Assembly: GCA_017411835.1 (NCBI GenBank)
Contig: JAFQPG010000002.1
Coordinates: 186,001 to 250,000 of the forward strand
Length of the DNA: 64,000 bases
Direction: 5' to 3'
Source of the DNA: Ruminococcus sp.
GTDB taxonomy: Bacteria > Bacillota > Clostridia > Oscillospirales > Acutalibacteraceae
The notes under the pieces are model-generated. The model did no database searches and was not told the DNA's origin. It saw nothing but the letters and a program-made list of their open reading frames with translations. Shown piece after piece: positions 29,479 through 40,444 of this stretch (position 1 is the stretch's first letter; each line of letters begins with the position of its first letter). The position numbers and the translations under genes were made by a program.

Positions 29479-30504
29479 TTATGCGAGCTGAGTAATTACA
29501 AGATGTGCGGATACAGGTCGTGTTCCGCCTGCGAGCGGTGTAATGGTGAGTGCTGTTGCGTTACCAGCAGGATTTCGTACAGTCAGGACTGAATCTTCAA
29601 CAGTTGTTGTGACAATAGACATACCAACAATCTGGGAAGTGCCTGTTGCTCTGCCAACAACGGTGTAGTCTAAATCTTCTCCGTTTAAGGTAAGAAGTAG
29701 CTGACCCGGTTCGTCTACGCTGACCTCGAAAAGTATCTGATAAGTTCCGATTGGACCTAAACTGAATGAGCTGTCGCTTGTTCTTGTAATATCGGTGCTG
29801 CTTATAGCTCCGTTTTCAGGGAAGCTGACATCAGTACCGGGAGCAACTGTTGCAGCATTGTCTGGTGGCATCAACGCATAAAAATCTGCAAAGTTAAGCA
29901 CTCCGCCCGGTTCGCCCTGCGGACCCTGAGGACCAACAGGACCGATAGGACCGGTAGCACCAGTCGCACCTGTTTCGCCCTGTGGACCCTGTGGACCGGC
30001 AGGACCAATAGGACCGGTAGCACCAGTCGCGCCTGTTTCACCCTGCGGACCCTGAGGACCGGCAGGACCTGTCGCACCTGTTTCACCCTGCGGACCCTGA
30101 GGACCGGCAGGACCGATAGGACCGGTAGCACCAGTCGCGCCCGTTTCACCCTGCGGACCCTGAGGACCGGCAGGACCGATAGGACCGGTAGCACCAGTAG
30201 CGCCTGTTTCGCCCTGAGGACCCTGAGGGCCGGCAGGACCGACAGGACCTGTCGCACCTGTTTCGCCCTGCGGACCCTGTGGACCTACAGCACCTGTAGC
30301 ACCGATAGGGCCTTGTGGGCCGATTGGACCTTGAGGACCGACAGGACCTTGTGGGCCGGCAGGTCCTATTTGACAACAGCAACAGGAATATCTATTCACG
30401 CAGGAATTATTTTGACGCTCGAAATTATAGGCTTGCTGACAGTTATCTATATTATTATCATCATAATAGTTATTATTAAAATCATAACAACTCCATTTGT
30501 TCAT
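29479..30504 (-). CDS. Collagen-like (BclA-type) spore surface protein
   Basis: 341 residues in three parts. N-terminus 1-46 is rich in Asn, Tyr and Cys, ending with four consecutive Cys (41-44). Residues 47-about 199 are an unbroken run of about 51 Gly-X-Y triplets. Residues 200-341 form a globular domain resembling the trimeric C-terminal head of BclA (it starts [15 protein letters not shown]- and L-rich beta strands). BclA proteins form hair-like filaments on exosporia. AAGGAGGTG precedes the start. On the minus strand CATATTATG (30540-30532) resembles a mother-cell sigma-E/K -10, only a weak hint. No signal peptide, as expected for spore-coat delivery. Confidence 0.88.
29908..30366 (-). 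repeat. Tandem repeats encoding Gly-X-Y triplets
   Basis: Coding tandem repeat of the collagen-like gene. The main unit is 63 bp, encoding [21 protein letters not shown], present in several near-identical copies; one copy is 18 bp shorter (lacks GATGPI). The 5' part of the run is more diverged. Copy number is likely to vary between strains through slippage in units that keep the frame. Confidence 0.9.
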
Positions 30505-30615
30505 TCTTGCACCTCCTTAAATGGTGTATTACATAATATGCTTATCCATGCTATAGTGGTACTAAGAGGATAACTCAAAGATGAAAATAACTATTTTATC
30601 AAGCACTATTTTTAA

Positions 30616-30643
30616 TTGCGTTTTTTGATATTTGTAGTATAAT
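30616..30643 (+). promoter_or_regulatory. Possible promoter of the K+ channel gene
   Basis: TATAAT (30638-30643) with TTGCGT (30616-30621) 16 bases upstream. The -10 is perfect, the -35 weak. Confidence 0.45.
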
Positions 30644-30685
30644 AAAAATGATATAGCTGTAAGGTATTTGTAAAGGGGAATGGGT

Positions 30686-31114
30686 ATGAAACGATTAAGA
30701 GTACTTAAAAATATCTTAGTCCGTACTAAGACACATCACATCATAGCTGTATATACGCTTTTTGTATTGCTCTGCGCTCTTGTTATTTTATTTGTTGAGC
30801 CTGATATAAAAAGGTATGCAGATGCGCTTTGGTATTGCTATGCGGTTGTGTCTACTGCGGGCTTTGGCGATGTTGTGGTTACCACCGCAATTGCAAAAAT
30901 TCTTTCTCTGCTTGTTACTATATATTCGATTTTAGTTATCGCAATCGTTACGGGTGTTGTGGTTAATTTTTACACCGAGATAACCGAGCTTCAGAAAAAA
31001 GAAACGCTCACAGCATTTATGTATAAATTAGAGCACCTAGACGAGATGTCAAAAGACGAGTTAAAAGAGATATCTAATCAGGTCAAAAGATTTAACGATA
31101 ACATTAAAAATTAA
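30686..31114 (+). CDS. Two-helix potassium channel (KcsA-like)
   Basis: 142 residues. A short basic N-terminus, TM1 (about 19-38), pore helix and filter, TM2 (about 70-95), then a charged cytoplasmic helix. The filter reads STAGFGD instead of the common TTVGYGD; GFG filters occur in working K+ channels, but the Ala in place of Val is less usual. The second ATG (30686) is chosen because AAGGGGAA (30673-30680) is better spaced from it than from ATG 30680. It stands alone and ends at a bidirectional terminator shared with hydF. Confidence 0.85.
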   Translation: MKRLRVLKNILVRTKTHHIIAVYTLFVLLCALVILFVEPDIKRYADALWYCYAVVSTAGFGDVVVTTAIAKILSLLVTIYSILVIAIVTGVVVNFYTEITELQKKETLTAFMYKLEHLDEMSKDELKEISNQVKRFNDNIKN

Positions 31115-31127
31115 TACCGGCACAAAT

Positions 31128-31162
31128 AAAAACGCTCACCTTTTTCGGGTGAGCGTTTTTTA
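31128..31162. terminator. Bidirectional terminator
   Basis: AAAAACGCTCACC (31128-31140) pairs with GGTGAGCGTTTTT (31148-31160). T-runs on both sides serve the convergent K+ channel and hydF genes; the arm touches the hydF stop codon. Confidence 0.88.
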
Positions 31163-32359
31163 AAGCATTTCTAAAATATCGGGAAAAGGAGCTAAAGAGC
31201 GTTTTAAAATATTGTGCATATGCGCAATCGCAACACCGTAGTTTACAATCGGTATTGACTGGGCATTTGCTTTTTGCATACGGGCTTTCATTTCTTTTTC
31301 ATTTAACATACAACCGCCACAATGTACAATTAGCTTAAACTGCGACAAGTCCTCAGGAAAGGTACCGCCACTTGTAAAGGTGTAATGCGGTTTAGCATTT
31401 GTGAATTTTTCAATCCACATCGGCATTTTGACAGTTCCGATGTCGTTGCATTGGCGGTGGTGGGTACAGCCCTCGGCGATTAAAACCTTGTCGGAGTCCT
31501 TAAGCCTTGATAAGGCTACGGCACCATCTACAAGAGTTTTTAAATCGCCTTTGTATCGTGCCATAAGTATAGAAAAAGATGTAAGCGTAATATCTTTTGG
31601 TGTGATTTCTGCGACTTTTTCAAAAGCCTGTGAATCAGTGATAACAAGCTTTGGCTTTTTAGAAAGCGAGGAAAGTGTCTTATCTAATTCTTCCACCTGT
31701 GTGCAGATACACATACAGTGGTTGTCGAGTATATCGCGCATCACCATTTGCTGTGGGAGTATCAGCCTGCCTTTAGGGGCTGACTTGTCAATCGGTATAA
31801 CAAGCACAACAAGGTCTTGCTCGCTTAGTAAATCTGATACAATCGGTTTATCTTTTTTTGCTTTTTTACTTAGCTTTGCGATTAATTCTTTAAGCTCGTT
31901 TATGTTTTCATTTGTTTTAGCGCTGACGTAGATTTCGTTATCGGCAAGGTTTACTTTTTCACTAATCAAATCAGCCTTATTGTACGCAACGATAAACGGA
32001 AGCTCACGTTCTTTAAAGCTATTAATAAGCTCAATATCCTGCTCGCTTTTTCCTTTTTGAGCGTCGATAACAAGCACAGCGATATCGGTTGAAGAGAGCA
32101 CCTCTTTTGCTCTTTTTACACGCATTTCACCCAAAGCACCCTCATCATCAAGCCCCGGTGTATCGATAATTACAACAGGGCCTAAAGGTAGTAGCTCCAT
32201 TGCTTTTTTAACAGGGTCGGTGGTAGTGCCTTTTATGTCGGATACAAGCGATAACTGCTGATTTGTCACAGCATTCACAACGCTCGATTTACCTGCGTTT
32301 CTCATACCGAAAAAGCCGATGTGCATGCGCTCGCTTGATGGTGTGTTTTGAAGGCTCAT
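31160..32359 (-). CDS. hydF: [FeFe]-hydrogenase maturation GTPase HydF
   Basis: HydF is the scaffold that assembles the 2Fe subcluster and delivers it to apo-hydrogenase HydA. 399 residues. The N-terminal TrmE-like GTPase domain has GMRNAGKSSVVNAV (G1), GTTTDPVKK (G2), DTPGLDDEG (G3) and YNKADL (G4); a dimerisation domain follows. The C-terminal cluster-binding ligands are visible as CTHH near residue 300 and HCGGC near 350 (CxHx~50HCxxC). Last gene of the regulator-hydE-hydG-hydF operon, 26 bases after hydG. Confidence 0.95.
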   Translation of the reverse strand: MSLQNTPSSERMHIGFFGMRNAGKSSVVNAVTNQQLSLVSDIKGTTTDPVKKAMELLPLGPVVIIDTPGLDDEGALGEMRVKRAKEVLSSTDIAVLVIDAQKGKSEQDIELINSFKERELPFIVAYNKADLISEKVNLADNEIYVSAKTNENINELKELIAKLSKKAKKDKPIVSDLLSEQDLVVLVIPIDKSAPKGRLILPQQMVMRDILDNHCMCICTQVEELDKTLSSLSKKPKLVITDSQAFEKVAEITPKDITLTSFSILMARYKGDLKTLVDGAVALSRLKDSDKVLIAEGCTHHRQCNDIGTVKMPMWIEKFTNAKPHYTFTSGGTFPEDLSQFKLIVHCGGCMLNEKEMKARMQKANAQSIPIVNYGVAIAHMHNILKRSLAPFPDILEML

Positions 32360-32385
32360 ATTATCCTCCTTATATTTGACTTATA

Positions 32386-33834
32386 TTAGAATCTGAAATC
32401 TCTGCGGTTTGAGTTCATAATATCGTCGATATTATGCTGGGCTATTTCACGCACTCTGTCTTTTGGAATTCTCAAAAGCTCTTTTTTAATAAGTTCGTAG
32501 CCGACCTTTTTGGTGTCCTCACTTGCGTAGTCCTCTAGATATTCTGTTAATGTCATTAACGCGTTAGGGTGACAGCAGTTAAGAATCTGTCCGCTTTTGC
32601 ACAAGCTCATAAAGCGGTCACCTGTACGACCTTCTCTATAGCACGCAGTACAGAATGACGGAATATGGCCGTTTTCCATAAGCCATTTTACAACCTCGTC
32701 GAGTGTACGCTGGTCAGATACATCAAACTGCTCGGTGTCGTGTGGACGCTCCTGCGTAGTATAACCGCCGACAGATGTACGAGAGCCACCGCTCACCTGC
32801 GAAATGCCAAGTCTTAAAAGCTTTGAACGAACCTCTTCGCTTTCTCGAGTTGAAATAATCATACCTGTGTATGGAACAGCAAGACGGATACACGCTGTAA
32901 TTTTTGCAAAAATTTCGTCGGAAATAGAGTTATCAAAAGCATCTGGGTCGATGTCGTCAGCGCGTTTGATACGAGGCACAGAAATCGTATGCGGGCCGAC
33001 ACCATGAACAGCCTCTAAATGTTCAGCATGCATAATAAGTCCTGCAAACTCGTATTTGTAAAGCTCAAGACCAAATAGTACGCCCAAGCCTACGTCGTCG
33101 ATGCCACCCTCCATAGCTCTGTCCATAGCTTCAGTATGGTAGTCGTAGTCGTGCTTAGGACCTGTTGGATGAAGTTTTAAATAGCTTTCTTTGTGGTAGG
33201 TTTCCTGAAACAGAATGTAAGTACCGATGCCTGCGTCCTTTAGCTTCCGGTAGTTTTCTACGGTAGTTGCCGCGATGTTAACATTAACTCTGCGGATATC
33301 ACCGTTTTTATGGTGAACGCTGTAGATAGTTTTGATACACTCTAAAATGTATTCGATAGGGTTGTTTACAGGGTCTTCACCTGATTCGATCGCAAGACGC
33401 TTGTGACCCATATCCTGCAAAGCGATTACTTCCGCTTTTACTTCTTCCTGTGTGAGCTTTTTGCGTGGAATACGCTTATTTTTTAAGTGATACGGACAGT
33501 ACACACAGCCGTTTACGCAGTAGTTAGATAAATAAAGCGGTGCAAAAATAACGATTCGGTTGCCGTAAAAAGCAAGCTTGATTTCTTCAGCAATCTGATA
33601 AATTTGCTCTACTTTTTCCGGAATATCGCACGCTAAAAGCACAGAAGCCTCTCTGTGGGTAAGACCACTGCAGGTGTAGCCTGTAGCGGTTTTCTTTGGA
33701 CGTGCCTTTTCAAGTATTTTATCAATAAGCTCAACGTTGTTTTTATTTTGTTCAGCATACTCTAGAGTTTCTCTGATTTCAGCATCATTGATAAACTCTT
33801 CTGCTTTTAGTGATTTAGGGTTATAAATTGCCAT
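32386..33834 (-). CDS. hydG: [FeFe]-hydrogenase maturase HydG (tyrosine lyase)
   Basis: HydG cleaves tyrosine to p-cresol and dehydroglycine, giving the CO and CN ligands of the H-cluster. 482 residues, normal. The radical-SAM motif lies in NYCVNGCVYCPYH. The C-terminal auxiliary cluster motif CTACYREGRTGDRFM with a downstream CC pair distinguishes it from ThiH. ATG 33834 is chosen for the upstream AAGGAG, which lies across the hydE stop; an in-frame ATG at 33870 is inside hydE. Translationally coupled to hydE. Confidence 0.95.
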   Translation of the reverse strand: MAIYNPKSLKAEEFINDAEIRETLEYAEQNKNNVELIDKILEKARPKKTATGYTCSGLTHREASVLLACDIPEKVEQIYQIAEEIKLAFYGNRIVIFAPLYLSNYCVNGCVYCPYHLKNKRIPRKKLTQEEVKAEVIALQDMGHKRLAIESGEDPVNNPIEYILECIKTIYSVHHKNGDIRRVNVNIAATTVENYRKLKDAGIGTYILFQETYHKESYLKLHPTGPKHDYDYHTEAMDRAMEGGIDDVGLGVLFGLELYKYEFAGLIMHAEHLEAVHGVGPHTISVPRIKRADDIDPDAFDNSISDEIFAKITACIRLAVPYTGMIISTRESEEVRSKLLRLGISQVSGGSRTSVGGYTTQERPHDTEQFDVSDQRTLDEVVKWLMENGHIPSFCTACYREGRTGDRFMSLCKSGQILNCCHPNALMTLTEYLEDYASEDTKKVGYELIKKELLRIPKDRVREIAQHNIDDIMNSNRRDFRF

Positions 33835-33838
33835 AGTA

Positions 33839-34888
33839 TTACTCCTTAGATATATCGCCTCGGTCGACAACGACCTCGTAGCCGATTTTTTGCATTGATA
33901 TTTTTAGTTTATTTAAGCTCTGGGCTGATTCTTCGCCCGTACTGATTTTGCCGTCATACAAAGTGTACTTTTTGCGAACTGACATAGGGGACAGGTTTGG
34001 CATAATTACGTTTGCGCCAGAAAGTATGCCACGCTCTCTGCCGTCGGTTTCTACCGTACCCAAAGCGGTTGTAGCAGGCAGTAGGATATTCGGTTTAATC
34101 AGCCTTATAATAGACAACAGGTAACAGCAAAGAGAAGCATCTCCTGCTTTATAGTCTTTAAACGGTGTCTGTTTGTGTGGGATAAAAGGCCCGATACCGC
34201 ACATATCAGGCTTGAAACTTTCAATGAATTTTAAGTCCTGTGCAATATTTCTGGTTGTCTGGTACGGTGAGCCCACCATAAACCCGCAACCTGTCTGAAA
34301 ACCGATTTCCTTTAAATTTTCAAGACATTCTATCCTGTCTTTTAAGGTAAGATTTTTTGGATGAAGCTTTGAGTAGTGAAGCTCATCTGCACTCTCGTGC
34401 CTTAAAAGATAGCGGTCAGCCCCCGCATCATATAGCTTTTGGTAGCTTTCTTTAGAGCGCTCACCAATAGATAAGGTAACAGCACAGTCAGGGTAGCTGC
34501 TTTTTATCTTAGATAATAAATCGCACAGCCACTCATCGGAAAAACTGCCGTCTTCGCCTGCTTGCAGTACAAAGGTACGAAAACCTAAAGCGTAGCCTTC
34601 ATCACAGCAAGAAAGTATATCGCTAATACTTAGTCTGTAGCGTTCACAATTTAGGTTGCTTTTTCTGATACCGCAGTAGTAGCAGTCGTTTTTGCAGATA
34701 TTACTGATTTCGATAAGTCCACGCACGAAAACTTTGTTCTGATAAACCTCTTTGCGTTTTTGTACTGCATAGCTTCTAAGTAACTGTGTTGACTCTTCAT
34801 TTCGATTTGCAATCAGGTATTCGTATTCGTCTATGCTAAGACTTTTTGTTTTGTAAAGCTTTTCTATTAAATTTATACACTTATTCAT
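33839..34888 (-). CDS. hydE: [FeFe]-hydrogenase maturase HydE
   Basis: HydE is a radical-SAM enzyme that processes the HydG-derived Fe(CO)2(CN)-cysteine synthon during H-cluster assembly. 349 residues. The CxxxCxxC motif is in SNICKNDCYYCGIR (near 62-75), followed by LQAGEDGSF, GCGFMVGSPYQT and GIGPFIPH, all typical of HydE/BioB-like barrels. It overlaps the upstream regulator gene by 8 bases and hydG follows within a few bases. Confidence 0.94.
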   Translation of the reverse strand: MNKCINLIEKLYKTKSLSIDEYEYLIANRNEESTQLLRSYAVQKRKEVYQNKVFVRGLIEISNICKNDCYYCGIRKSNLNCERYRLSISDILSCCDEGYALGFRTFVLQAGEDGSFSDEWLCDLLSKIKSSYPDCAVTLSIGERSKESYQKLYDAGADRYLLRHESADELHYSKLHPKNLTLKDRIECLENLKEIGFQTGCGFMVGSPYQTTRNIAQDLKFIESFKPDMCGIGPFIPHKQTPFKDYKAGDASLCCYLLSIIRLIKPNILLPATTALGTVETDGRERGILSGANVIMPNLSPMSVRKKYTLYDGKISTGEESAQSLNKLKISMQKIGYEVVVDRGDISKE

Positions 34889-35138
34889 TGCTGATCACGT
34901 TTGAGTAAGCAGTCTTGACGGTAACGCCATCAATATTGCCGATTTTCCCACATAGCGCAGAGATGATATCCTGAGGTGCATCGATTACTACGCTTATTAC
35001 AGAAATATGCTTTTCTCTGTACGGAATACCCATTCTGCCGATTATGTACTCACCTGCCTGATGCAAAACCAAATTAAGTTTTTCGGTAGAGTCATTATTT
35101 TCTACAATAATGCTCATAACTGCAATTCGCTTTTCCAT
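34881..35138 (-). CDS. TM1266-family iron-only hydrogenase system regulator
   Basis: Small ACT-like protein of 85 residues, regularly first in hydEGF operons and annotated as a hydrogenase system regulator; mechanism unknown. It shows MEKRIAVMSIIVEN, then GEYIIGRMGIPYRE and VISVVIDAPQDIISALCGK, the NikR C-terminal/ACT-like pattern. The ATG at 35138 has GGAGG 5 bases upstream; an in-frame ATG at 35180 lies in the terminator hairpin and is rejected. The 3' end overlaps hydE. Expression is probably controlled by the leader described separately. Confidence 0.88.
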   Translation of the reverse strand: MEKRIAVMSIIVENNDSTEKLNLVLHQAGEYIIGRMGIPYREKHISVISVVIDAPQDIISALCGKIGNIDGVTVKTAYSNVISNE

Positions 35139-35150
35139 ATTACCTCCATT

Positions 35151-35274
35151 AAAAAAGCCGTACCCCAACGGATACGGCAAAAAAGCATACTTGCACAGCA
35201 GTATGAAAATATCGTGTTTAGCCGTATCTTTCAGTCAGAGTAGTCTTTGTGTCAGATACATATATATCTTTTAC
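35151..35274 (-). ncRNA. Candidate attenuator/riboswitch leader of the hyd operon
   Basis: Minus-strand 5' leader of about 135 bases. Its 3' end is an intrinsic terminator: GCCGTATCC (35178-35170) pairs with GGGTACGGC (35165-35157) around GTTG, then TTTTTT (35156-35151), ending only 13 bases before the start codon. Its left arm GCCGTATC (35178-35171) is also perfectly complementary to GATACGGC (35228-35221), an antiterminator. That segment can instead close a helix with GTATCT (35259-35254 with 35229-35224). Helices at 35274-35248 and about 35204-35185 also form. I recognise no known riboswitch class. A short frame (MYLTQRLL, from 35261) could be a leader peptide. Confidence 0.6.
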
Positions 35275-35280
35275 ACTTTA

Positions 35281-35309
35281 ATTATACTATGTATATATGC
35301 ATAAATCAA
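35281..35309 (-). promoter_or_regulatory. Promoter of the hyd operon
   Basis: Minus strand TTGATT (35309-35304), 17 bases, TATAAT (35286-35281). The spacer contains TATGCATA (35303-35296), the octamer also found in the argG promoter. Confidence 0.75.
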
Positions 35310-35560
35310 GTGGATAAATACGGGATAATAGCGGTTTTTGTCATAAATTTTTGCATATAAAAGAGCATAATTAACCTCCATAATATGCAGTAAAAATGCA
35401 TATTTTAAATGTTTATGCACAAGCCTTTTGTTAAAATTACCATATTATAAGTATATAGCGTCAAAAACAAGGGTATTTTGAATAAATATGATAAAATCTA
35501 TTGACAAATATGCATAAAATATCTATAATATATGCATACTCAATAAAATTATTGCATATT
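35296..35560. promoter_or_regulatory. Cluster of TATGCA/TGCATA sites, probable ArgR-type operators
   Basis: The 441-bp gap between the hyd operon and argG holds no gene. It carries TATGCATA at 35296, 35509 and 35531, TGCATA at 35352 and 35553, a dyad TATGCA-7 bp-TGCATA (35384-35402) and TATGCA at 35414. Around the argG promoter the centres lie 22 and 21 bp apart (two helical turns), the spacing of paired ARG boxes. The core differs from the E. coli and Bacillus ARG box, so ArgR is an inference from position, spacing and gene context. Confidence 0.55.
35501..35529 (+). promoter_or_regulatory. Consensus promoter of argG
   Basis: TTGACA (35501-35506), 17 bases, TATAAT (35524-35529), perfect in both hexamers. 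TATGCATA lies in the spacer and again 2 bases after the -10. A perfect promoter under operator control suggests strong expression when arginine is low. Confidence 0.88.
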
Positions 35561-35579
35561 TATTCACGGAGGCGTTACT

Positions 35580-36794
35580 ATGAACAAAGAAAATATTAAA
35601 AAGGTTGTACTCGCTTATTCAGGCGGACTTGATACATCTATAATTATTCCATGGCTTAAAGAGAACTACAACAACTGCGAGGTTATCGCAGTATCCGGCA
35701 ACGTTGGTCAGGCTGACGAGTTAGAGGGCTTAGAGGAAAAGGCTATTGCGACAGGTGCTTCTAAGTGCTATATCTTAGACCACACAGACGAGTATGTAGA
35801 CGATTTCATCATCCCTACAATGAAAGCAGGCGCTGTATATGAAGACTATCTTCTCGGCACAAGCCACGCTCGCCCATGTATTGCTAAAGGTCTTGTAGAG
35901 GTTGCTCTTAAAGAGGGCGCTGACGCTATCGTTCATGGCTGTACAGGTAAGGGTAACGACCAGGTTCGTTTTGAGCTTGCTATCAAGCATTTTGCTCCTA
36001 ATATGCCGATTATCGCTCCTTGGCGTGAATGGGATATAAAGAGTCGTGAAGAGGAAATCGAGTATGCTGAAGCACACAACATTCCTTTAAAAATTAATCG
36101 CGAAACAAACTACTCAAAGGACAAAAACCTCTGGCATTTATCCCACGAGGGTCTTGACCTTGAAGATACAGGCAACGAGCCACAGTACGAAAAAGAAGGC
36201 TTCTTGGAGATGGGCGTGTCCCCACTTCAGGCTCCTGATAAGCCAACTTATGTTGAACTTGAATTTGAACAAGGTATTCCGGTTGCTCTTGACGGCGAAA
36301 AAATGAGCGCAAAGAACATCATCTTAAAGCTCAACGAAATCGGTGGTGCAAACGGTATTGGTATTATCGACATCGTAGAAAACCGTTTAGTTGGTATGAA
36401 GTGTCGTGGCGTGTACGAAACACCGGGCGGTACTATCCTTTACAAAGCGCATAAGGTGCTCGAGTCAATCTGTCTTGATAAAATGACAATGCACGAAAAA
36501 GAAAGACTCTCAATCACATTTGCTGAGCTTTTATACAACGGCCAGTGGTTTACTCCACTTAGAGAAGCTCTTTCTGCTTTTGTTGACAAGACACAGGAGA
36601 GAGTTACAGGTAAGGTAAGACTCAAGCTCTACAAGGGTAATATGATTAACGCAGGTGTATGGAGTCCATACTCACTCTATTCCGAGGAAATCGCTACCTT
36701 TGGCGAGTCTGATTACGACCAGAGAGATTCAGCCGGCTTCATCAATCTGTTTGGTCTTCCAATCAAGGTTCAGGCACAAATCGACGGTAAATAA
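35580..36794 (+). CDS. argG: Argininosuccinate synthase
   Basis: Joins citrulline and aspartate with ATP to argininosuccinate. 404 residues. The PP-loop motif is [18 protein letters not shown] (12-29); other family segments are [13 protein letters not shown] and [20 protein letters not shown] precedes the start. It has its own promoter and is followed by a hairpin, so argG is separate from argHCJBDF. Confidence 0.97.
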
Positions 36795-36808
36795 TTATAT
36801 GAAATATC

Positions 36809-36840
36809 TGTCCTGCACAATAAACTGTGCAGGACATTTA
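36809..36840 (+). terminator. Terminator-like hairpin after argG
   Basis: TGTCCTGCACA (36809-36819) pairs perfectly with TGTGCAGGACA (36826-36836); only TTTAA follows, so termination may be partial. Confidence 0.6.
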
Positions 36841-36856
36841 ACATTTAAGAAAAATG

Positions 36857-36885
36857 TTGAAATAATCACAGTTTTATAGTAAAAT
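36857..36885 (+). promoter_or_regulatory. Promoter of argHCJBDF
   Basis: TTGAAA (36857-36862), 17 bases, TAAAAT (36880-36885), 38 bases before argH. Confidence 0.65.
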
Positions 36886-36923
36886 TAACTGGTTAACGAT
36901 TTTTAAGTTAGAAGGTAATAATT

Positions 36924-38294
36924 ATGGCAAAAATGTGGGCAGGCAGAACAAGTGGCGAAACCTCTAAAATCGCTGATGATTTTAACTCTTCAATCCGCTT
37001 TGACTGCAAAATGTACGAGCAGGATATCAAGGGCAGTATGGCGCATGCTATGATGCTTTCAAAACAGAATATCATTACTAAAGCAGATGCAGAAATTTTA
37101 TGCGAGGCTTTAGGACAGATTCTCGATGACATAAACAGCGGTGCACTCGAAATTGATATACAGGCAGAGGACATCCATATGTTTGTTGAGCAGGTGCTCA
37201 CACAAAGAGTCGGAGATGTCGGCAAAAAACTGCACACCGCACGAAGCCGTAACGACCAGGTCGCGCTTGACCTTAGAATGTATCTGCGTGACGAGTGCGA
37301 CGAAATAGTTGAGCTTACGCTAAGCCTTTTAAAAGCTATTTGCTCACAAGCTGAATCTAACAAAGAGACCATTATGCCGGGCTATACACATCTTCAGCGT
37401 GCACAGCCTGTTACCTTTGCGCATCATATAATGGCTTATGCGATGATGCTTTTAAGAGATATTGACAGAATAAAAGATTGCAGAAAGCGTATGAATGTAT
37501 CTCCTATCGGCTGTTGTGCTCTTGCAGGTACTACGTACGACACAGACAGATATTTCGAAGCAGAAAAGTTAGGCTTTGATGAAATCGCTTTAAACTCATT
37601 AGACGGCGTATCCGACAGAGATTTCTGCGTTGAGCTTTTATCGGATATTGCAACACTTATGATGCACCTTTCCCGTTTTTCAGAGGAGCTGATTTTGTGG
37701 TCAAGCTGGGAGTTCAAATTTGTTGAGCTTTCTGACAGCTTTACAACAGGCTCATCAATTATGCCTCAGAAAAAGAACCCTGATATGGCAGAGCTCGTAA
37801 GAGGTAAAACCGCTCGTGTTTACGGCGATTTGATGGCAACACTTACTATGCTCAAAGGCTTGCCTCTTGCATACAACAAGGATATGCAGGAAGACAAAGA
37901 GAGCATCTTTGATGCCTGCGAAACAGTAAAAATGTGCTTAAAGGTTTTTGCTCCTATGATAGAGACCATGACCGTTAAGGCTGACAATATGAGAAAGGCT
38001 GCAAGCGAGGGCTTTATCAATGCTACTGACCTTGCTGACTATTTAGTTAAAAAGGGTATGCCTTTTAGAAGTGCTTACAAAATCTCGGGCAGCTTGGTTG
38101 CTTATTGCATCGAGAATAAGACTATTCTTGAAGACTTGCATTTAGAAAAATACAAAGAGTACTCAGAGCTTTTTGAAAACGATGTGTATGACGAAATCGA
38201 CCTTACAGCCTGTGTCAACAAGCGCATCAGCGTTGGCGGTACATCGGTTGAGTCGGTAAATATGCAGATTAAATATGTGAAAGAGAAAATCTGA
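36924..38294 (+). CDS. argH: Argininosuccinate lyase
   Basis: Splits argininosuccinate into arginine and fumarate, the last biosynthetic step. 456 residues, fumarase/aspartase superfamily. It starts MWAGRTSGETS-like after three residues; TARSRNDQVALDLR is near 107 and the superfamily signature GSSIMPQKKNPD near 277. First gene of a six-gene operon; argC begins one base after its stop. Confidence 0.97.
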   Translation: MAKMWAGRTSGETSKIADDFNSSIRFDCKMYEQDIKGSMAHAMMLSKQNIITKADAEILCEALGQILDDINSGALEIDIQAEDIHMFVEQVLTQRVGDVGKKLHTARSRNDQVALDLRMYLRDECDEIVELTLSLLKAICSQAESNKETIMPGYTHLQRAQPVTFAHHIMAYAMMLLRDIDRIKDCRKRMNVSPIGCCALAGTTYDTDRYFEAEKLGFDEIALNSLDGVSDRDFCVELLSDIATLMMHLSRFSEELILWSSWEFKFVELSDSFTTGSSIMPQKKNPDMAELVRGKTARVYGDLMATLTMLKGLPLAYNKDMQEDKESIFDACETVKMCLKVFAPMIETMTVKADNMRKAASEGFINATDLADYLVKKGMPFRSAYKISGSLVAYCIENKTILEDLHLEKYKEYSELFENDVYDEIDLTACVNKRISVGGTSVESVNMQIKYVKEKI

Positions 38295-38295
38295 T

Positions 38296-39216
38296 ATGAC
38301 AAAAGTTTTTATAGATGGTAGTGCGGGCACAACAGGACTTCGAATTTTCGACAGACTCAAAGACCGCAAGGATATTGAGCTTATTACCTTAAGCGATAAT
38401 TTAAGAAAAGACGTAAGTGCTCGACAGCACGCGCTCAACAACTGTGACGTAGCGTTTTTGTGCTTGCCTGATAAGGCTTCCATTGAGGCAGTAAGTCTTA
38501 TTGAAAACGACAAAACAGCAGTGATTGATACTTCAACTGCGCACAGGGTAGACCCTTTATGGACCTACGGTTTTGCAGAGCTTTTAGAGTCTTATGATGT
38601 AATCAGAAATTCAAAGAGAATTGCAAATCCGGGTTGTCACGCAAGCGGTTTCAACGCACTTGTTGCACCGCTTACAAAGCTCTCTCTACTTAAAAAAGAT
38701 GCAAACCTCTCCTGCTTTTCTTTGACAGGCTATTCGGGTGGCGGAAAGCAAATGATTGCACAGTATGAGCAAGGAAAAGACGCTTTGCTAACTGCGCCGA
38801 GAATGTACGGACTTACCCAGTCACACAAGCATATCCCTGAAATGGTGAAGGTGTGCGAGCTTAAAAACGCTCCTGCGTTTTGTCCGGTGGTGTCAAGCTA
38901 TTACGCAGGTATGCAGGTAACTGTGCCGATATTTAAAAGCGATTTAAACGGCACCTTAAAAGACATCAAAGACGCATACAGGTCCGTATATACGGGCAAG
39001 GTTGTTCACTTTGATGAATGTGCAGACGAAGATGGCTTTATGTCGGCAGGTGCTTTTAACTTAAAGGACGATATGCAGATTACGGTTTGCGGAAACGACG
39101 AGCGTATTTTGCTTGTATCACGCTTTGATAATTTAGGCAAGGGCGCTTCGGGCAGCGCTATTCAGAATATGAACATACTACTCGGTGTTGACGAGTGCAC
39201 AGGATTAAATATATAA
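38296..39216 (+). CDS. argC: N-acetyl-gamma-glutamyl-phosphate reductase (short type)
   Basis: NADPH-dependent reduction of N-acetylglutamyl phosphate to the semialdehyde. 306 residues, the shorter type-2 ArgC. The dinucleotide motif is IDGSAGTTGLRI (residues 6-17) and the catalytic Cys lies in NPGCHASGF (near 114). The next gene follows after 13 bases with AAAGGAT. Confidence 0.95.
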   Translation: MTKVFIDGSAGTTGLRIFDRLKDRKDIELITLSDNLRKDVSARQHALNNCDVAFLCLPDKASIEAVSLIENDKTAVIDTSTAHRVDPLWTYGFAELLESYDVIRNSKRIANPGCHASGFNALVAPLTKLSLLKKDANLSCFSLTGYSGGGKQMIAQYEQGKDALLTAPRMYGLTQSHKHIPEMVKVCELKNAPAFCPVVSSYYAGMQVTVPIFKSDLNGTLKDIKDAYRSVYTGKVVHFDECADEDGFMSAGAFNLKDDMQITVCGNDERILLVSRFDNLGKGASGSAIQNMNILLGVDECTGLNI

Positions 39217-39229
39217 AGGATAAAAGATT

Positions 39230-40444
39230 ATGAAGAAAATTTCTGGCGGTGTGTGTGCGGCACAGGGCTTTAAAGCCTCAGGCGTGCACTGCGGTATCCG
39301 CAAAAATCAGAGCAAAAAAGACCTTGCATTGATTGTAAGTGAAAAAAGGGCTGTCACAGCCTGCGTATATACTAAGAATTTAGTAAAAGGCGCACCGCTT
39401 ACAGTCACTAAGGAGAATATATCTGACGGCTATGCGCAGGCGGTTATCTGTAACTCGGGTAATGCAAATACCTGTAACGCAAACGGCGTTGAAATTGCAC
39501 AAAAGATGTGCAGTTTAGTTGAAAAAACAGTCGGCATTAAAGCAAGTGATGTGGTCGTTGCATCAACCGGTGTTATTGGTCAGCCACTTTGCATTGACCC
39601 GATTAAAAATTCTATTGATAATCTTGCTTCTTTGTTGAGCGTTGACGGTTCATTTGATTGCGCAAGTGCGATTATGACCACCGACACAACTGCAAAGGAA
39701 ATCGCAGTAGAGTTTGAAATAGACGGCAAAGTTTGTCGTATGGGCGGTATTGCTAAAGGCTCCGGTATGATTCACCCTGATATGGCAACTATGCTCGTGT
39801 TTATCACAAGCGATGTCAGCATTTCCAAAGAGATGCTACAAAAAGCTTTGTCCAGCGATGTTGATGCAACTTTTAATATGCTGTCAATCGACGGAGACAC
39901 CTCAACTAACGATATGGTTACTGTTATGTGTAACGGAAAAGCTCAAAACACAGTCATCGATAGTGAGGGCGAGGCTTTTGATACATTTATGAAAGCGCTC
40001 AACACCATCACAGTTGCTTTGTGTCGTATGATTGCTGCTGATGGCGAGGGTGCCACAAAGATGCTTGAGTGCAACTGCACAGGTGCACAAAGCTTAGAGG
40101 TCGCAAGAACAGTTTCAAAAAGCGTTGTATGCTCAAGCTTGCTTAAAGCAGCTATGTTCGGCGCAGATGCTAACTGGGGACGAGTGCTGTGCGCAATCGG
40201 CTACAGCAAAGCGGACGTAGACGTAACAAAGGTGAGAGTAACCTTTAAATCAGCAAAAGGCGAAATACTCGTTTGCGAAAACGGAGCAGGCGTAGAATTT
40301 TCTGAAGAAAAGGCTAAAGAAATTCTGCTTGAAGATGAAATCGAAATTAACATCAGCGTAGGTGACGGAGAGTTTTCTTCAACAGCGTGGGGCTGTGACC
40401 TTACCTACGACTATGTAAAGATAAACGGTGACTACCGTACATAA
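39230..40444 (+). CDS. argJ: Bifunctional ornithine acetyltransferase/N-acetylglutamate synthase
   Basis: ArgJ recycles the acetyl group from N-acetylornithine to glutamate (cyclic pathway). 404 residues. The autocleavage site is GMIHPDMATMLVFI, with the Thr nucleophile near residue 187, so the protein should split into alpha and beta chains. The precursor begins GGVCAAQGFKASGVHCGIRK. ArgJ plus argB and argD without argA or argE indicates the cyclic route. Confidence 0.96.
   Translation: MKKISGGVCAAQGFKASGVHCGIRKNQSKKDLALIVSEKRAVTACVYTKNLVKGAPLTVTKENISDGYAQAVICNSGNANTCNANGVEIAQKMCSLVEKTVGIKASDVVVASTGVIGQPLCIDPIKNSIDNLASLLSVDGSFDCASAIMTTDTTAKEIAVEFEIDGKVCRMGGIAKGSGMIHPDMATMLVFITSDVSISKEMLQKALSSDVDATFNMLSIDGDTSTNDMVTVMCNGKAQNTVIDSEGEAFDTFMKALNTITVALCRMIAADGEGATKMLECNCTGAQSLEVARTVSKSVVCSSLLKAAMFGADANWGRVLCAIGYSKADVDVTKVRVTFKSAKGEILVCENGAGVEFSEEKAKEILLEDEIEINISVGDGEFSSTAWGCDLTYDYVKINGDYRT

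Follow-up and report, generated by a model that had tools for sequence, protein, structure and literature searches.

The leader upstream of the [FeFe]-hydrogenase maturation genes of Ruminococcus sp. is not a private leader: it carries a widespread RNA module that also occurs at hydG ribosome-binding sites and before other genes, and that constitutes a cis-regulatory RNA class undescribed as far as our literature and Rfam searches reach. We consider it highly probable that a real RNA switch for [FeFe]-hydrogenase maturation is present here. Based on sequence comparison, our preferred reading, toward which the balance tips modestly, is that the leader would be a member of a new class (working name, TM1266/hydE module) acting as an OFF switch for H-cluster maturation, with the TM1266 protein as its most probable partner. 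Held more tentatively, at a little under even chances, is the broader proposal that TM1266 may be an unrecognized RNA-binding regulator that senses the state of H-cluster assembly and, via a pseudo-two-fold-symmetric hairpin, acts through attenuation and Shine-Dalgarno masking on hydE, hydG, hydF, aspA, importers, and at least one nitrogenase-like operon across Clostridia-like bacteria.

The window (the whole stretch of DNA that was analyzed, 64,000 nucleotides) carries the hyd operon on its minus strand in the order TM1266-hydE-hydG-hydF, with all four genes above the cut-off in a TIGR profile scan; for hydG, the ATG start at 33834 is favored over the listed TTG at 33870. The features of the region, all on the minus strand, are the following.

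35281..35309, minus: sigma-70-type promoter TTGATT-17-TATAAT, 10/12 match (promoter scan)
35224..35259, minus: conserved RNA module of ~36 nt (lone fold, R1 match, covariation)
35259-35254/35229-35224, minus: P1, outer helix of the module
G35253.A35230 and A35252.A35231, minus: first 2x2 loop of the module
C35251-G35232 and A35250-U35233, minus: central helix of the module, with C35249.C35234 nonstandard in the window
A35248.A35235 and A35247.G35236, minus: second 2x2 loop of the module
35246-35244/35239-35237, minus: P2, inner helix of the module, closing the loop 35243-35240
35221..35228, minus: antiterminator strand GATACGGC, shared with the P1 3' strand (exact complement of 35178-35171; mix-and-match test; free fold)
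35179..35205, minus: extra hairpin CATACTGC-TGT-GCAAGTATG, then C and six T (sequence; minimum-energy fold of the leader)
35151..35178, minus: intrinsic terminator GCCGTATCC-GTTG-GGGTACGGC plus TTTTTT, with a 9-bp stem, GTTG loop, and T6 (terminator scan)
35143..35147, minus: Shine-Dalgarno GGAGG of the TM1266 gene (by eye)
34881..35138, minus: TM1266-family regulator gene, 85 aa (TIGR03959, 114.5 bits; PF21699; homologue PDB 2nzc)
33839..34888, minus: hydE (TIGR03956, 555 bits)
32386..33834, minus: hydG (TIGR03955, 920 bits)
31160..32359, minus: hydF (TIGR03918, 570 bits)

The two halves of the module are almost alike, following the consensus CUGA-NNN(N)-NAAG-loop-CUGA-N'N'N'(N')-NAAG, and together they form a pseudo-symmetric hairpin made up of an outer helix, a 2x2 loop, a central helix, a second 2x2 loop, and an inner hairpin. 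By itself, the window copy adopts this shape (−8.3 kcal/mol), and it matches R1, a model built from a 24-module alignment, with 48 bits (E = 2e-11, the window sequence being part of the model). In an 11-row alignment, restricted to modules whose central helix is 4 bp long, standard pairing holds in 33 of 33 cells for three of the central positions, which show 3, 4, and 3 pair types, and in 7 of 11 rows for the fourth; 92.9% of all cells pair, compared with 74.7% when shuffled and at most 49.5% when slid. The corresponding 24-row values are 81.4% versus 76.3% for pairing and 0.197 versus 0.111 for the covariation score. Across 122 distinct modules, which are covariance-model matches (so that pairing is favored) and mutually related, standard pairing at the three central positions is seen in 104, 114, and 120 cases, where 49.7, 71.0, and 54.6 would be expected from column make-up, and at the optional fourth position in 50 of 56, where 40.9 would be expected. 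This set derives from 148 model matches, segmented by anchors rather than by pairing, with 12 unsegmentable matches dropped. We observe one hallmark of a riboswitch, an aptamer-like conserved fold with covariation.

A kink-turn consists of an asymmetric 3-nt bulge beside tandem G.A pairs; no such arrangement was found in the 11-row module alignment, where both internal loops are symmetric (2x2). The earlier failure to assign the leader to a known aptamer is borne out by Rfam, which gave no match at gathering score in the window and only tRNA among 20 module-bearing loci; no T-box model match was obtained in the window or in these 20 loci. Sub-threshold Rfam matches in the leader and its relatives belong to unrelated families, with none for L057 3500-3620. 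Literature searches on hyd maturation, TM1266, riboswitches, RNA motifs, attenuation, and ACT-domain RNA binding returned nothing describing the module in the portions of text covered. A word search of the main texts of bacterial RNA-motif surveys and reviews (PMC11109978, PMC8632094, PMC6429828, PMC7266159) gave zero occurrences of hydE, hydG, and hydrogenase, and an unnamed orphan motif in their supplements is possible.

With respect to the leader as a whole, the preliminary description had proposed an attenuator with three mutually exclusive helices, and our results support this, with helices that covary in relatives. The promoter scan locates the promoter at 35309-35281, as claimed, and the leader of about 135 nt between promoter and operon is confirmed in place; promoter-like sites in positions 30000-40000 are not above chance (24 versus 22.8 expected), and terminator-like sites there number 13 versus 8.4 expected. 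The terminator stands at the position given for it, with its 9-bp stem, GTTG loop, and T6, and only its distance needs correction: 12 nt, not 13, separate the end of the T run from the ATG at 35138. The described 8-nt complementarity is exact, GATACGGC (35228-35221) being the reverse complement of GCCGTATC (35178-35171), and the upstream pairing of GTATCT (35259-35254) finds its complement AGATAC at 35229-35224. The whole leader folds more stably than its shuffles (z-score of −2.34), 6 of 200 shuffles being equally good; its conservation in other genomes, described below, is the weightier evidence. Between the module and the terminator, the extra hairpin at 35205-35179, which is missing from the terminator scan list, may be a pause site or a second, tandem terminator; a hairpin likewise lies directly before the terminator in L002 and L003 (by eye).

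The competition between module and terminator is also visible in relatives, where a terminator-like stem lies downstream of the module in 70 of 71 leaders examined. For 66 distinct leaders, the duplex of module end and terminator arm has a mean energy of −12.4 kcal/mol for cognate and −9.2 kcal/mol for non-cognate combinations (0 of 20,000 permutations as good), in a test weakened by the retention of some terminators picked inside coding sequence (e.g., L034, L130). The cognate duplex outranks every other combination in only 4 of the 66 leaders and comes within the top 5% in 16, since the leader sequences resemble one another. When the window transcript is folded up to 35168, the free fold is the antiterminator (−22.7 kcal/mol, versus −18.5 kcal/mol with P1 enforced), and the full leader is near balance between the terminator (−32.9 kcal/mol), the antiterminator (−32.7 kcal/mol), and P1 plus terminator (−31.7 kcal/mol). 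An expression platform that is exclusive with the aptamer helix, a second riboswitch hallmark, was found in this way. Because the antiterminator folds freely and the full leader is near balance, the folding models suggest that read-through is likely the default state and that a stabilized module would be needed for termination.

What the sequences show directly is the module and its covariation, the helices that compete, the set of genes, and the co-occurrence with TM1266. From these we infer a direction of control that would be OFF in both modes of action, as well as binding of the module by TM1266 and any signal that TM1266 may sense. With no partner present, the P1 3' strand and the next bases (GATACGGC) would pair with the 5' arm of the terminator, giving read-through into TM1266-hydE-hydG-hydF. 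If the module were held closed, P1 would retain its 3' strand, the terminator would form, and transcription would stop; the closed module should be the OFF state because its outer helix competes with the antiterminator that excludes the terminator. On the Shine-Dalgarno sequence of hydG, hydF, or an ABC importer, a closed module would hide the ribosome-binding site. The closing partner would most probably be the TM1266 protein, as an RNA-binding repressor that is often autogenous and perhaps ligand-responsive; this role is favored by the co-occurrence of TM1266 and the module in genomes.

The module was compared across 80 hydE loci, obtained by a HydE scan of genomes that are mostly Clostridia metagenome assemblies such as Ruminococcus. 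Upstream of TM1266/hydE, relatives carry a string close to CCUGACAYAAAG-N-CUGASUGAAAGG, in many cases soon after a promoter-like box, and by eye a TATAAT-like box lies shortly upstream of the module in many of them. The conservation check suggested in the preliminary description came out in favor of the module: at E <= 1e-3, R1 recognizes 40 of the 80 loci, among them 23 that went into its construction, and the central helix covaries. In the genome from which the window comes, R1 finds a single strong match, the leader itself, and no second module was seen before the window hydG, either on reading the hydE-hydG spacer or with R1 and a further model, R2, which match only the leader copy across genome and window. 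Further afield, R1 matches 28 of 200 genomes of the family (E <= 0.1), 36 of 394 genomes of the order (E <= 0.01), and only 3 of 398 genomes of the phylum (E <= 0.001); at E <= 0.01, R2 matches 67 of 391 genomes sampled from the class and 15 of 249 from the phylum. More than 100 related genomes appear to share the module. Weak R1 matches in L101, L102, L105, L107-L111, L113, L083, and L084 were rejected as coding or unrelated sequence, as were R2 matches in L184, L185, L191, L192, L194, and L206, which are excluded from the count. TM1266 lies directly downstream of 16 of the 19 family R1 matches at E <= 1e-3, and the remaining three are L090 (TM1266 1.2 kb off), L112 (a Shine-Dalgarno-type copy before hydG), and L101 (chance). 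The match in L149 (G718) lies away from any hyd gene.

In other genomes, the hydE-hydG spacer holds a copy of the module that extends into the hydG Shine-Dalgarno sequence, as in CUGA-CGGG-GAAG-loop-CUGA-CCCA-AAAG-AAAGGA. These copies first surfaced as weak R1 matches, and the leader and Shine-Dalgarno forms have one common architecture. The regulon was counted on 65 fetched loci with 69 R2 matches, a subset of all matches, leaving 67 after removal of a duplicate locus and a partial match. The next gene is hydG in 27 cases, TM1266 in 20, hydE in 4, and hydF in 1 (52 of 67), with 23 of the 27 hydG copies being of the Shine-Dalgarno type by script and L187 by inspection; 6 of the 15 matches outside the hyd/TM1266 set look like chance. 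In L158 and L161, the module precedes aspA and then hydF (gene names confirmed). Aspartate ammonia-lyase can provide ammonium for the dithiomethylamine ligand of the H-cluster, which makes aspA a fitting target, and this gene is frequently located close to hyd genes (PMC11736057, in the part covered); the main text of that paper contains zero occurrences of TM1266 and of "regulator", and no RNA element appears in the part covered. Finally, the module directly precedes hydE in seven loci (L014, L030, L033, L064, L122, L124, L130), and autoregulation of TM1266 as its sole role was rejected on that account.

Five R2 matches precede ABC-importer gene sets (L170, L178, L197, L199, L201). The importer binding protein is SsuA/NMT1/phosphonate-like in L178, L197/L218, and L199/L222, and also in L217; the binding protein of L170/L225 has no Pfam match, although its permease and ATPase do, and that of L201/L223 is a fragment without a match. 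ABC importers recur under the module (L217, L218, L222, L223, L225, L227), once after a TM1266 paralogue. A TM1266 gene is followed by an ABC importer in L196 and by an ECF component in L213. In genome G1020 (L198/L221), the module is followed by a nifH-like gene, two nitrogenase-component-like genes, a FecCD-type ABC system, and hydE, an operon that is possibly a nitrogenase-like system tied to H-cluster genes. In L164, the module is found after hydE, near a contig end.

If true, the broader proposal would mean that Clostridia-like bacteria have an RNA regulon devoted to [FeFe]-hydrogenase maturation. In our judgment, little is known about how bacteria control synthesis of the H-cluster, which is the metal site of [FeFe]-hydrogenases and costly to make, and a module common to hydE, hydG, hydF, aspA, and uncharacterized importers would define a regulon and give TM1266 a testable job. 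The module would also offer a handle on the hydrogen metabolism of gut and acetogenic bacteria, and the importers that it would control, of the ABC and ECF types, may hint at a so far unrecognized substrate for assembling the H-cluster.

The case for TM1266 as partner comes from its distribution. TM1266 is absent for 17 of the 80 hydE loci (genome searches and adjacent genes), and a whole-genome search of 23 genomes behind hydE loci found it in 7. Among the 78 assessable loci (contig-edge loci L074 and L081 left out), a model detected the module close to hydE in 52 of the 62 whose genome encodes TM1266 versus 2 of the 16 whose genome does not (Fisher, P = 1.7e-7, ancestry ignored), or 60 of 62 versus 2 of 16 when variants seen by eye are counted (P = 1.3e-11, ancestry ignored). 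Independent pairs on the HydE tree number 5 supported, of which about 2 agree and 0 oppose, a test without significance because the pairs are too few. One of the two exceptions is L019, where 2296-2500 still hold the module and terminator and, behind them, a truncated stretch resembling the TM1266 start, with an early stop (by eye), apparently a case in which the regulator was lost and the RNA kept. R2 matches at E < 0.001 occur in 56 genomes, of which 54 (47 of 49 among good assemblies) encode TM1266, a set that includes at least two chance-like matches (G684, G1230) and six uninspected ones (G1091, G1039, G978, G1160, G998, G1223). Where TM1266 is separate from the hydE unit in G239, a module copy precedes each (L134; L147 by eye, missed by R1). 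R1 detected no module at the detached TM1266 genes of G564, G566, G482, G540, and G434, indicating that TM1266 autoregulation is not universal. As expected for a protein-dependent attenuator, a cognate protein that co-occurs with the RNA site was found, a result that may partly reflect ancestry. Five Lachnospiraceae loci without TM1266 (L016, L021, L022, L028, L039) have a different hydE-hydG string, ~UCUGACCGRAG...CAGAGAAAAU (by eye), which is perhaps a relic of the module.

In the phylum sample, TM1266 is found in 126 of 249 genomes, of which only 13 have an R2 match, and 13 of the 15 R2-positive genomes have TM1266, including all 11 with a match in sensible context. The scarcity of R2 matches among these TM1266 genomes is due in part to a variant form, CUGA-N4-RAGG, which occurs in the upstream 320 nt of 7 of 28 distant TM1266 loci versus 1 of 560 shuffles (the 7 include two clusters of near-alike modules, and L281 and L286, with TM1266 near a contig edge, were left out). 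Upstream of TM1266 in L273, L280, and L287, two tandem CUGA..RAGG module-like hairpins are seen by eye, unscored by the pattern scan. The protein is also present in Thermotoga maritima (search control), and its invariant residues across 42 sequences include R4, R35, and K75. The family is annotated as a putative regulator only, 2nzc, deposited under the title hypothetical protein, is the sole relative found in the PDB, and a literature search on TM1266 listed no RNA-related paper on the family, which we take to have an ACT/NikR-like fold.

The main alternative, a serious one that we nevertheless rate clearly below our preferred reading, is a true riboswitch, in which the ~36-nt module would bind a small molecule or metal complex of H-cluster maturation, closed would again be OFF, and TM1266 would merely be a co-inherited member of the regulon. 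The ligand might then be SAM, tyrosine, or iron, among the candidates named in the preliminary description. The module is compact and has conserved purine-rich internal loops, terminator and Shine-Dalgarno platforms are both in use, and the targets, a biosynthetic pathway plus importers (ABC, ECF component), are the usual set for feedback riboswitches. Known transcriptional and translational OFF riboswitches likewise combine an aptamer-like module with an antiterminator/terminator or Shine-Dalgarno masking at biosynthesis and importer genes, but the present module has no Rfam match and its presence follows that of TM1266. The gene pattern cuts both ways: TM1266 is located elsewhere in several genomes, and G1137 and G971 (93 and 97% complete, from genera in which other genomes have TM1266) and G565 have a module and no TM1266 match, whereas 14 of the 16 assessable hydE loci from TM1266-less genomes lack the module (ancestry uncorrected), which a TM1266-independent switch does not predict. 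Moreover, hydE/G/F, aspA, importers, and a nitrogenase-like operon have no one obvious linking metabolite.

A TM1266-controlled attenuator would have well-known counterparts. Attenuators under protein control include PyrR, TRAP, HutP, and LicT/BglG-RAT; they too have a conserved leader RNA by a terminator, reuse the same site at Shine-Dalgarno sequences, and often have the gene of the RNA-binding regulator (here the candidate TM1266) first in the operon. The shape of our module differs from theirs, with two 2x2 purine loops around a covarying helix of 3 to 4 bp. In Clostridium thermocellum, Rex targets include hydG (a DAP-seq peak), and the neighboring putative iron-only hydrogenase system regulator has only a predicted Rex site (PMC8457756, in the part covered). 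That control of hydG is redox control at the DNA level, with no RNA element described in that part of the paper.

The remaining explanations fare much worse. A constitutive read-through terminator without a signal, or a merely stabilizing 5' structure, is very improbable, given that the alternative helix to the terminator arm is conserved and that the module is reused at Shine-Dalgarno sites without a terminator. Marginally less probable still is that the conserved sequence serves a repressor as its DNA operator, just past the promoter, with an incidental terminator: the module does lie near the −10 box in leaders and resembles an imperfect direct repeat, but its loop varies from 4 to 17 nt in relatives, the central strands covary as RNA pairs across that loop, copies sit at the Shine-Dalgarno sequence in the hydE-hydG spacer, and the 3' strand can pair with the terminator arm. 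Translation-coupled attenuation via the once-suggested leader peptide MYLTQRLL, readable in the window as an ATG-TAT-CTG-ACA.. frame, is refuted by the lack of conservation of that frame, which lies inside the module, has ATGTAT in 2 and any start codon in 3 of the 24 aligned modules (first 12 nt), with no conserved short ORF among them and with changes that are compensatory in the RNA helix, and we regard it as practically dismissed.

Elsewhere in the window, the ORF at 29479-30504 (minus strand, 341 aa), downstream of the hyd operon, encodes long collagen-like Gly-Pro-X repeats. On the plus strand, a perfect consensus promoter (TTGACA-17-TATAAT, 12/12 match) lies at 35501-35529, upstream of divergent arginine-biosynthesis genes (gene names from reading). 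ATGCATA strings, which we take to be possible ArgR-type boxes, recur across the intergenic region shared with these genes. A strong 12-bp hairpin, TGTCCTGCACAG..TTGTGCAGGACA, at 36836-36809 (minus strand) lies just beyond the end of the ORF 35580-36794 and is probably the terminator of that ORF, seen on the opposite strand.
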